Source of the DNA: an uncultured SAR86 cluster bacterium
Lineage (GTDB): Bacteria > Pseudomonadota > Gammaproteobacteria > Magnimaribacterales > AG-339-G14
Length of the DNA: 64,000 nt
Assembly (NCBI GenBank): GCA_902616715.1
Contig: CACMTR010000002.1
Location: 62,001 to 126,000 of the forward strand
Direction of reading: 5' to 3'
Position 1 is the first letter of the stretch. The number at the start of each line of letters is the position of its first letter. This document shows, in pieces, positions 24,710-29,522 of this stretch. Made by a program: the position numbers and the translations under genes. Below the pieces are notes generated by a model. The model did not search any database. It was not told where the DNA came from and worked only from the letters and a program-made list of their open reading frames with translations.

Positions 24710-24724
24710 CTCTTAAATGTATTG

Positions 24725-27466
24725 ATGGCAAAACCCGAAAGCATTACTGACAACGACTCAGTTATTTTAGTGGATGGTTCATCTTATATTTATCGCGCTT
24801 ATCATGCGTTGCCGCCATTAACCACCTCGTCTGGCCAACCAACTGGCGCAGTGCGCGGAGTGACCACCATGGTGATGCGAATTTTAGAAGATCATCCTAA
24901 TAGTCCAGTCGGAATGATCTTTGACGCCAAGGGCGAGACTTTCCGAAATGAAATGTACAGTGAATATAAGGCCAATAGACCGCCGATGCCAGATGATTTA
25001 AGACCTCAAATTCAACCGATTCATGACATTTGCCGCGCTTTAGGATTGAAGCTTTTTATAGTCGATGGGGTAGAGGCAGATGACGTAATTGGCACCCTGG
25101 CAACTGAAGCTGAAAGCAAAGGCATCAAAACTGTTGTTTCAACAGGCGATAAAGACTTAGCCCAACTGGTGACTAAAAACATCACCTTGGTGAATACAAT
25201 GACCAATGAATTGCTTGATGAAGATCGAGTGATGAAAAAGTTTGGTGTTAGACCTGATCAAATTATCGATTACTTAGCTTTGGTTGGCGACACTTCGGAT
25301 AACATCCCAGGCGTTAATAAAGTGGGCCCAAAAACTGCTGTGAATTGGTTAAGCAAATATGACTCAGTAGAAAAGATTATTGAATCCGCAGATGAAATTA
25401 CAGGCAAGGTCGGCGAATATCTAAGAGAAGGCATTGAGCAACTTAAATTATCCAAGCAATTAACTACCATTAAAAAAGACGTCGCATTGGACTTTGGTAT
25501 TGAAGATCTTCAAGTTGAGCCAAGAGACGAGGCTAAAATTTTTGAATTATTTACCGAATTAGAATTTAAAACACTCATTAAAAGTAAAGTTGATAAATCG
25601 ACCCCAAAGGCAAAACCAACAGAGCTTCCAGAAGCTTTAAAAAAAGAAACTCCCAAACTAAAAGACATCAATGCGAGCTATCAATGCATCTTAAAAGAAT
25701 CAGAACTTGATGCTTTGATTGAAAAGTTGGGTAAAGCTAAATTGATTGCGCTCGACACAGAAACCGATGGCCTAGATTTCACGACTGCAGAATTAGTTGG
25801 TATTTCACTTTCTGCTAAAGAAGGCGAAGGAGCCTATATTCCCATCAGTCACGATTATGCTGAGGCACCTAAACAATTAAAAAAAGAATTGGTATTAAAA
25901 AAACTAAAGCCGTTGTTAGAGAAAGTACCGATTGTCGGGCAACACATAAAATTCGACCGAAACGTTCTCGCTCAACATGGCTTGGAACTCAATAATATTG
26001 GGAGCGATAGCATGCTGATGTCTTATGTTTTGGATTCAACTGCAACGCGTCACAACTTGGACGCCATGGCTAAATTTTATTTGAATTACGAAGCCACTAG
26101 CTACGAAGAAGTTGCTGGCAAGGGAGTGAAGCAAATCACTTTTAATAACGTTGATTTAGAAACCGCTACTCATTACGCTGCGGAAGATGCAGACATAACT
26201 TTGAGATGCCACAACGTTTTGCAAGAAAAATTGAGTAAAACCAAGTCTCTTGAAAAAGTTTTAGCGGATATTGACCTGCCTTTGATTCCGGTGTTATCAG
26301 ACGTTGAACAAAACGGAGCTTTAGTCAACGCAGATGAGTTGAAAATCCAGTCCAATAATCTTGGTCAGCGCATTAGTGGCCTTGAAGAAAAAGCTTTTAA
26401 AGAAGCGGGAAAAGAATTTAATTTAGCTTCCACCAAGGATTTAAGGGCCATCTTTTTTGACGAAATGGATCTGCCGGTCATCAAGAAAACTCCTGGCGGG
26501 CAGCCATCGACTGATGAATCGGTCTTACAAGACTTGGCAAGAGATTATGAACTGCCAAAAATATTATTGGAGCACAGAACTCTGGCTAAACTCAAAAGTA
26601 CTTATACAGACTCGCTGCCAGAACAAATTTCACCGGTGACTGGTAGAGTGCATACCTCTTATCACCAAGCGGTCACAACTACTGGAAGATTATCTTCCGC
26701 AGATCCAAATTTACAAAATATCCCAATTAAAACAGAAGAAGGCCGCATGATTCGTACAGCCTTTGTGGCACCCAAAGGATATAAATTGCTAGCAATTGAT
26801 TATTCCCAAATTGAATTAAGAATCATGGCACATCTCTCAGGCGACAAAAATATGATTTCAGCTTTTGAAAATGGGGAAGACATTCACTCTGCCACTGCGG
26901 CTGAAGTTTTTGCTGCACCTGGAAAAGAAGCCAGTGATGAGGATAGACGAAGCGCTAAGGCTATCAATTTTGGGCTGATCTATGGCATGTCAGCTTTTGG
27001 CTTAGGCAAAGCGCTTGGATTGCCTAGAACGGTAGCGCAAGATTACATTGACTCGTATTTTGCTAAATATCCTGGAGTCAAACTTTACATGGAACAAACC
27101 AAAGAACGGGCGCGTGAGAAAGGCTTTGTAGAAACAATTTTTGGCAGACGTTTGTATTTGCCAGGAATATATAGTGGACGCACACGTCAAGGTGCGGAGA
27201 GGGCAGCGATTAATGCGCCAATGCAAGGCACGGCAGCCGATATCATGAAACTCGCAATGATTTCCATACATGAGTGGGTACAAAAGGAAAAAGTTGATGC
27301 CAAAATGATCCTGCAAGTGCATGACGAGGTAATTTTAGAAGTCCCAGAAAAGGAAGTGGCTTCGGTGGAAGGCGAAGTTTCAAAACTGATGCAAAATGCA
27401 GCTTCTTTAAAAGTGCCACTAGAAGTGGAAAGCGGAATTGCCAATAATTGGGGCGAAGCTCATTAA
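24725..27466 (+). CDS. polA: DNA polymerase I
   Basis: 5' nuclease domain VDGSSYIYRAYHALPP, 3'-5' exonuclease LIALDTETDG, polymerase IDYSQIELRIMAHLSGD and LQVHDEVILE. Confidence 0.98.
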   Translation: MAKPESITDNDSVILVDGSSYIYRAYHALPPLTTSSGQPTGAVRGVTTMVMRILEDHPNSPVGMIFDAKGETFRNEMYSEYKANRPPMPDDLRPQIQPIHDICRALGLKLFIVDGVEADDVIGTLATEAESKGIKTVVSTGDKDLAQLVTKNITLVNTMTNELLDEDRVMKKFGVRPDQIIDYLALVGDTSDNIPGVNKVGPKTAVNWLSKYDSVEKIIESADEITGKVGEYLREGIEQLKLSKQLTTIKKDVALDFGIEDLQVEPRDEAKIFELFTELEFKTLIKSKVDKSTPKAKPTELPEALKKETPKLKDINASYQCILKESELDALIEKLGKAKLIALDTETDGLDFTTAELVGISLSAKEGEGAYIPISHDYAEAPKQLKKELVLKKLKPLLEKVPIVGQHIKFDRNVLAQHGLELNNIGSDSMLMSYVLDSTATRHNLDAMAKFYLNYEATSYEEVAGKGVKQITFNNVDLETATHYAAEDADITLRCHNVLQEKLSKTKSLEKVLADIDLPLIPVLSDVEQNGALVNADELKIQSNNLGQRISGLEEKAFKEAGKEFNLASTKDLRAIFFDEMDLPVIKKTPGGQPSTDESVLQDLARDYELPKILLEHRTLAKLKSTYTDSLPEQISPVTGRVHTSYHQAVTTTGRLSSADPNLQNIPIKTEEGRMIRTAFVAPKGYKLLAIDYSQIELRIMAHLSGDKNMISAFENGEDIHSATAAEVFAAPGKEASDEDRRSAKAINFGLIYGMSAFGLGKALGLPRTVAQDYIDSYFAKYPGVKLYMEQTKERAREKGFVETIFGRRLYLPGIYSGRTRQGAERAAINAPMQGTAADIMKLAMISIHEWVQKEKVDAKMILQVHDEVILEVPEKEVASVEGEVSKLMQNAASLKVPLEVESGIANNWGEAH

Positions 27467-27503
27467 CTTTTGAACTTTTTTAAAACTCTCTAGTCTAAAA
27501 AGC

Positions 27504-27582
27504 ATTCTCCTAAGAAATAAGGAAACTCTCTCCTTAAGCCCATTGATCTCCCCTTTTTAAATCAATGGGCGCTTAGAAGAAT
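27504..27582. repeat. Nested inverted-repeat element able to form a three-way junction
   Basis: Outer arms ATTCTCCTAAG(27504-27514)/CTTAGAAGAAT(27572-27582), 10/11 pairs; hairpin 1 TAAGGA/TCCTTA (27518-27523/27531-27536); hairpin 2 GCCCATTGAT/ATCAATGGGC (27538-27547/27561-27570). Confidence 0.7.
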
Positions 27583-27709
27583 CTTTATCTAACAATCTAA
27601 GTTCCAGGACTAACTCCACATATTCATCCCATCTTGTGTCTAGTGCTCGACAAGTATGTTTGGCGAACACAAACTCTCTGGCTTCTTTTAGGGTTTTAAT
27701 TTCTTTCAT
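27557..27709 (-). CDS. 50-aa hypothetical protein MKEIKTLKEAREFVFAKHTCRALDTRWDEYVELVLELRLLDKDSSKRPLI
   Basis: Continuous frame starting 8 nt after the stop of the 27718 ORF, same strand; stop lies in the loop of the downstream hairpin; below ORF track cutoff. Confidence 0.5.
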   Translation of the reverse strand: MKEIKTLKEAREFVFAKHTCRALDTRWDEYVELVLELRLLDKDSSKRPLI

Positions 27710-28916: not shown

Positions 28917-29522
28917 TCAGTGATTTAATTTTATTTCCATCCAATCCAGAATTTTTTTCGAAAGCTCTTTAGCCCCAGAAGCTGTTTTTGCGGACAACAA
29001 CATAGGGCTATCTAACAATAAATTATGAGTAGTTTTTTCTACACATTTCATAAGCTCTTGAGACGCTTTATTCTTTGAGAGCTTATCTGATTTATTCAAA
29101 AGAATTTGCATAGGTAAATTGTATTGTTCGCACCAAGCAATGAAATTTAGGTCACTTTCTTGCAGCGGATGTCTGACGTCCATAATTAAAATAATACCTC
29201 TGAGGCTTTTACGGGAGGCCATGTATTTAGTGATTTGTTGACCCCATTCTTTTTGCATTTTTTTTGAGGCTTTGGCATAGCCATAACCCGGAAGGTCCAC
29301 TAATTTTTTTGAAGAATCTTCATTGACGTAAAAAAAGTTGATGGATTGAGTTCGACCGGGTGTGTTGGAAGTTTTTGCTAATTTTTTTTGATTCGCAAGC
29401 ATGTTTAAAACGCTCGATTTGCCTGAATTGGAGCGACCACAAATAGCTAGCTCAACGCCCTCATCGTCAGGAAAAAATTGCTCTGTAGGACAGGACCTAT
29501 CAAAGTTAATCTTTAAGAACAT
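28917..29522 (-). CDS. engB: Ribosome biogenesis GTPase EngB/YihA
   Basis: GRSNSGKSSVLN, TPGRTQSINFF, DLPGYGYAKA, LNKSDKL. Confidence 0.95.
   Translation of the reverse strand: MFLKINFDRSCPTEQFFPDDEGVELAICGRSNSGKSSVLNMLANQKKLAKTSNTPGRTQSINFFYVNEDSSKKLVDLPGYGYAKASKKMQKEWGQQITKYMASRKSLRGIILIMDVRHPLQESDLNFIAWCEQYNLPMQILLNKSDKLSKNKASQELMKCVEKTTHNLLLDSPMLLSAKTASGAKELSKKILDWMEIKLNH

Follow-up and report, generated by a model that had tools for sequence, protein, structure and literature searches.

The window, a stretch of 64,000 nucleotides from an uncultured SAR86 cluster bacterium, contains a compact structured element on the plus strand just downstream of polA. The preliminary description had placed this element between polA and engB. 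It does lie between the two genes, but three further minus-strand ORFs come before engB here: a 50-aa ORF, a MORN-repeat protein and a 138-aa ORF with no Pfam match. In genera g4 and g2 there is a converging reading frame, taken to be engB, directly next to the RNA. The features of the locus are:

24722-27466, plus strand: polA, upstream of the element
27472-27477, plus strand: -35 element GAACTT of a putative sigma-E/AlgU-type promoter; the same motif class precedes rpoE here and in relatives
27493-27499, plus strand: -10 element GTCTAAA, kept in g1, g2 and g4, and GTCATA in g3
27504-27581, plus strand: proposed sRNA, with its start placed by promoter spacing and its 3' limit at the end of the block conserved in congeners
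27504-27514 (ATTCTCCTAAG) with 27572-27582 (CTTAGAAGAAT), plus strand: outer stem, genus-level, closing a three-way junction; 10 of 11 pairs form and C27509 x A27577 fails
27505-27513, plus strand: 5' segment UUCUCCUAA, complementary to the Shine-Dalgarno sequence UUAGGAGAA
27518-27536, plus strand: hairpin 1, 27518-27523 with 27531-27536, 6 bp, loop AACUCUC (AACTCTC as DNA)
27538-27570, plus strand: hairpin 2, 27538-27547 with 27561-27570, 10 bp, loop CTCCCCTTTTTAA (CUCCCCUUUUUAA as RNA)
27557-27709, minus strand: 50-aa ORF with no Pfam match, its 3' end antisense to the sRNA
28917-29522, minus strand: engB/YsxC-type GTPase with an MMR_HSR1 match, identified as engB from sequence and synteny

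Reading the window sequence confirmed the three helices where they had first been described, with an outer stem enclosing two perfect hairpins. The minimum free energy is -28.7 kcal/mol, against -14.5 +/- 2.8 kcal/mol in dinucleotide shuffles (z = -5.0), and 0 of 200 shuffles were as good. The loop of hairpin 1 contains CUCUC and that of hairpin 2 contains CCCC. The stop codon of the 50-aa ORF falls within the hairpin-2 loop, a point missed by the preliminary description, and a relative of this ORF occurs at another place in G028 (L017).

The promoter motif GAACTT-N16-TCTAA (27472-27498), which we take to be of the sigma-E/AlgU class, directly follows the polA stop and had likewise escaped notice. 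Its -10 box region (GTCTAAAAA) is conserved, and g3 has a promoter at the same place (GAACTTTTATACC...AGTCATA). Because of the spacing expected for such promoters, the transcript would begin near 27504, which is also the first nucleotide of the outer stem. A T-run on the minus strand, which had been read as part of a terminator for the engB-side operon, turned out to be the complement of the -10 box region, and no terminator-like site was found at the element on either strand.

A sigma factor of the RpoE family was found in the window genome at 204 bits, which is under the NCBIfam equivalog cut-off, and the gene order read from the sequence there is rpoE / anti-sigma-like / DegP-like. This rpoE is preceded by GAACTTATGCACAATGCACATGTCAAA, which is conserved in g1 and g4 and has variants in g2 and g3, implying that rpoE may be autoregulated; the predicted sRNA promoter is presumably sigma-E dependent. 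Sigma-E-type promoters stand directly before rpoE at G000:C1:90428 and in L255-L269. The RseA_N family adjoins rpoE in several genera, and no match to it was found beside rpoE in the window genome itself.

Three SAR86 genera (g1, g2 and g4) have conserved the promoter, the 5' segment and both hairpins. Genome searches recovered the block 27470-27581 at 93-100% identity in six congeners and at 73-87% identity, over shorter stretches, in g2 and g4. The congener flanks are unrelated past about 27581, and the unit is therefore bounded there. The 5' segment UUCUCCUAA is present in all g1, g2 and g4 sequences and reads UCUCCUA in g3. An exact pattern of the promoter and 5' end gave 42 matching stretches in a collection of 84,980 species; the ones among them with the remainder of the unit are labelled SAR86 cluster or marine gammaproteobacterium, and the others, which are scattered, are taken as chance matches. 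A query match in G056 was likewise judged, on inspection, to be chance. In G025 (L046), about 0.8 kb of inserted DNA lies between polA and the unit, whose promoter and RNA are both intact. Because the promoter was kept after this split, the sRNA is an autonomous unit.

Just after polA, g3 (L052-L056) carries a shorter RNA that shares the promoter type, has a GTCATA -10 box and ends in a canonical plus-strand terminator (ACCCCGGG...CCGGGGTTTTTTT), which supports the plus strand for the RNA. In g1 and g4, the RNA is not followed by a U-tract terminator on the plus strand. In families f2, f3 and f4, where few intervals could be delimited, the RNA beside polA seems absent. Rfam scans of the window, the interval and the relatives L009, L018, L023 and L052 gave no match for the SAR86 RNA, while the positive control L135 scored 121 bits with the ErsA model. 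From these features we infer that 27504-27581 on the plus strand is very probably a small-RNA gene of SAR86 and, judged from the open-access literature, very probably one that is undescribed and specific to this lineage.

A covariance model built from four g1 sequences only found the g4 RNAs at 53-64 bits and the g2 RNAs at 23-35 bits, at the right place. Because plain MAFFT misplaced the g2 stem, we used an alignment fitted to the model; being fitted to the tested structure, it leans the covariation result towards that structure. Across both hairpins, 98.2% of cells are paired in this alignment and 8 of the 16 pairs changed on both sides (3 of 6 in hairpin 1, where 100% of cells are paired, and 5 of 10 in hairpin 2). 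The hairpin covariation score was 0.484, compared with 0.258 in shuffles, 0 of 500 of which reached it, and with at most 0.163 in slid versions. The stem of hairpin 2 is rewritten from GCCCAUUGAU to GCCCGUCAGC and its loop is still C/U-rich (UCUCUCUCCCC in g2, ACUCUCUCUCCUCC in g4). The earlier reading of the loops as complementary to Shine-Dalgarno sequence is supported. When the g1, one g4 and the g2 RNAs were folded separately, both hairpins formed; a second g4 sequence (G018) folded alone kept hairpin 2 and lost hairpin 1.

In the outer stem, 82.8% of cells are paired and both sides have changed in 1 of 5 pairs; G005 has one mismatch. The three-way junction had been presented as the defining feature of the element; because the outer stem barely covaries and does not form in g2, this junction is a genus-level elaboration, and the conserved core consists of the promoter, the 5' segment and the two C/U-loop hairpins.

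The element is likely to be a gene for a trans-acting regulatory RNA with its own sigma-E promoter, whose C/U-rich loops and 5' segment block ribosome-binding sites (RBSs). Envelope stress would free sigma-E from its anti-sigma factor, and the freed sigma-E would direct synthesis of the compact RNA, some 80 nt long, from 27504-27581. The loops and the 5' UUCUCCUAA would then pair with G-rich RBSs and block translation; other stress sRNAs suggest by analogy that the mRNAs concerned may encode outer-membrane proteins. The RNA may do so through its structured loops without the chaperones Hfq or ProQ, as reported for sX13. We propose this chaperone-free action because neither Hfq (PF17209) nor ProQ (PF04352) was detected in any of 61 SAR86-order genomes (G000-G060) in which controls were detected; 29 of the 61 are at least 90% complete, some are incomplete, and very divergent Hfq or ProQ could escape such a search. 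A tblastn search of the window genome with E. coli Hfq gave nothing significant.

In the window genome, complementarity to the hairpin-2 loop is higher for the start regions of TonB-dependent receptor genes than for other genes (p = 0.001; p = 0.026 once matched for Shine-Dalgarno strength); 1 of 100 shuffled loops did as well. GGGGA is present in 4 of the 11 receptor RBSs and in 9 of the 1141 others (p = 3e-6, for a motif picked after inspection). However, GGGG is found in 9 of 15 receptor RBSs in each of two f2/f3 genomes without an RNA seen beside polA, compared with 3/12, 3/7, 1/8 and 4/12 in genomes that have the RNA. Being commoner in those two genomes, G-rich receptor RBSs are not dependent on the RNA. 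With a negative control that is equally or more G-rich, we do not claim TonB receptors as targets and treat them as a hypothetical target class. Unusually G-rich TonB-receptor RBSs (GGGGA/GGGAG) were observed in G000, G005, G007, G009, G011, G040 and G041.

Other explanations of the element may be considered. The RNA could work through its 5' UUCUCCUAA and not its loops, with the outer stem switching this segment between a hidden and an exposed state. The 5' segment is indeed the most conserved part of the RNA and is paired in g1 and free in the g2 fold; yet the C/U-rich loops are conserved too, and with an outer stem that is not conserved across genera the switch would have to be genus-specific, so that we find this version unlikely. 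We think it quite unlikely that the element has no regulatory role of its own and serves as a terminator, or as a stop for transcripts converging from polA and the engB-side operon. Such a role would suit the strong hairpins and the convergent gene arrangement in the window, but not the absence of a terminator-like site from both strands, the conserved sigma-E-type promoter and 5' segment, the loops kept C/U-rich while the stems change, or the persistence of the unit in G025 after its separation from polA.

In most genomes, no more than 40 nt separate the polA stop codon from the start of the RNA, as would be expected of an element of the polA 3' UTR; its own promoter motif, retained with the RNA after the G025 insertion, makes this very improbable. 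Equally hard to credit is a protein-binding or titrating RNA, such as a CsrA sponge: the window genome does have a CsrA homologue and hairpin 1 contains one GGA, but this sole GGA sits inside a stem and the conserved loops are C/U-rich. Returning to the trans-acting sRNA that we favor, SAR86 bacteria are abundant and uncultured, and such an RNA would be an early regulatory-RNA candidate for them, no earlier one having been found in the open-access literature. It would also offer a way of testing how an sRNA acts in a streamlined genome with neither Hfq nor ProQ detected.

Across a class-wide sample of 68 polA-downstream intervals from other Gammaproteobacteria, the motif GAAC[TA][TA]-N15-17-.TC..A is present on the plus strand in 22 intervals and on the reverse strand in 0, against a shuffle expectation of 0.76 (maximum 4 in 200 shuffles). 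Hairpins with C-rich loops were found in 32 of the 68 intervals versus 3 on the reverse strand, and two or more of them in 18 intervals versus 0. A typical RNA of this kind has a C-rich-loop terminator and several hairpins, among them one whose loop is CCUCCCU and another with CCCC. C-rich-loop RNAs were seen after polA in L122, L126, L133, L139, L140, L144, L148, L154, L155 and L157, and further in L161, L172, L177, L178 and others; most have sigma-E-type promoters and almost all lack an Rfam match. One interval (L135) corresponds to the Rfam ErsA family at 121 bits, three match anti-hemB, and the other scanned intervals match nothing. The g1-based covariance model does not recognise the g3, ErsA or class-wide RNAs, and R1, a model made from the class-wide RNAs, gave a poor consensus structure and was set aside.

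Whether other polA loci encode sRNAs was left open in the sX13 paper (PMC3771888); our data answer yes for many gammaproteobacterial lineages, with many of these candidates linked to one promoter class. We propose the polA-locus sigma-E C-rich-loop sRNAs as a putative functional and positional grouping, which is not a claim of common lineage. The SAR86 RNA would belong to it, as it lies after polA on the same strand and has a GAAC..-N15-17-.TC..A promoter and hairpins with C/U-rich loops. More tentatively, the slot after polA might be an ancient envelope-stress riboregulator locus of Gammaproteobacteria, housing a sigma-E-driven RNA with C-rich anti-Shine-Dalgarno loops. ErsA, and possibly sX13, the Burkholderia anti-hemB RNA and Spot 42, would then be local descendants, and the SAR86 RNA a minimal Hfq/ProQ-free version; we regard this scenario as possible, if somewhat doubtful.

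ErsA (Pseudomon-1, RF01719) of Pseudomonas lies in the polA-engB interval and depends on AlgU (sigma-22). The SAR86 element had been suggested to be a positional homologue of ErsA or Spot 42, and neither of the two Rfam models matches its RNA. As an ErsA-type positional counterpart it stands, and the case is stronger for its own sigma-E-type promoter, its conservation and covariation, and the Rfam ErsA match at the same place in another gammaproteobacterium. The link to Spot 42, with no Rfam match and another promoter type, is not supported. The likeness to ErsA extends to locus, promoter class, C-rich apical loop and, presumably, a stress sigma factor: an ErsA-like sigma-22/sigma-E promoter sequence, compared as a motif, is present at the SAR86 RNA and common to rpoE, and the ErsA-positive locus L135 carries the promoter GAACTTCGGGCCAAACAGGCGAGTCATA. 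The SAR86 RNA differs in lacking an RF01719 match and in its size, about 80 nt versus 132 nt. ErsA, which contains an unstructured U-rich domain, is dependent on Hfq (PMC8575079, PMC7264166), a protein not detected in the 61 SAR86-order genomes.

Spot 42 (spf, of Enterobacteria and Vibrio) shares the position downstream of polA, but its model, RF00021, does not match the SAR86 RNA. It is Hfq-dependent and cAMP-CRP-repressed (PMC3771888 and its references), in contrast to the sigma-E-type promoter and the lack of detectable Hfq in SAR86. The alpha-r7 sRNAs of Alphaproteobacteria are polA-linked and form stem-loops with apical C-rich motifs (PMC3771888); they resemble the SAR86 RNA, by description only, in polA linkage and C-rich loops, and belong to another class of bacteria. 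The anti-hemB family (RF02837, Burkholderia RNA 7) matches the RNA downstream of polA in L141, L147 and L166, and in L141 and L147 the match is preceded by the same promoter class. This suggests that anti-hemB belongs with the polA-locus RNAs, although RF02837 does not match the SAR86 RNA.

The sX13 RNA of Xanthomonadaceae is a polA-adjacent, Hfq-independent sRNA with C-rich loops (PMC3771888). It represses by way of these loops and G-rich motifs in mRNAs. Like the SAR86 RNA, it lies downstream of polA and has stable stems with C-rich apical loops, a likeness of locus and loops and not of established sequence similarity. sX13 has three hairpins with 4C/5C loops in 115 nt, whereas the SAR86 RNA has two in about 80 nt. 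The Hfq-independent action of sX13 fits genomes without detectable Hfq or ProQ, and by these analogies the SAR86 RNA is probably like ErsA in its control and like sX13 in its mechanism.
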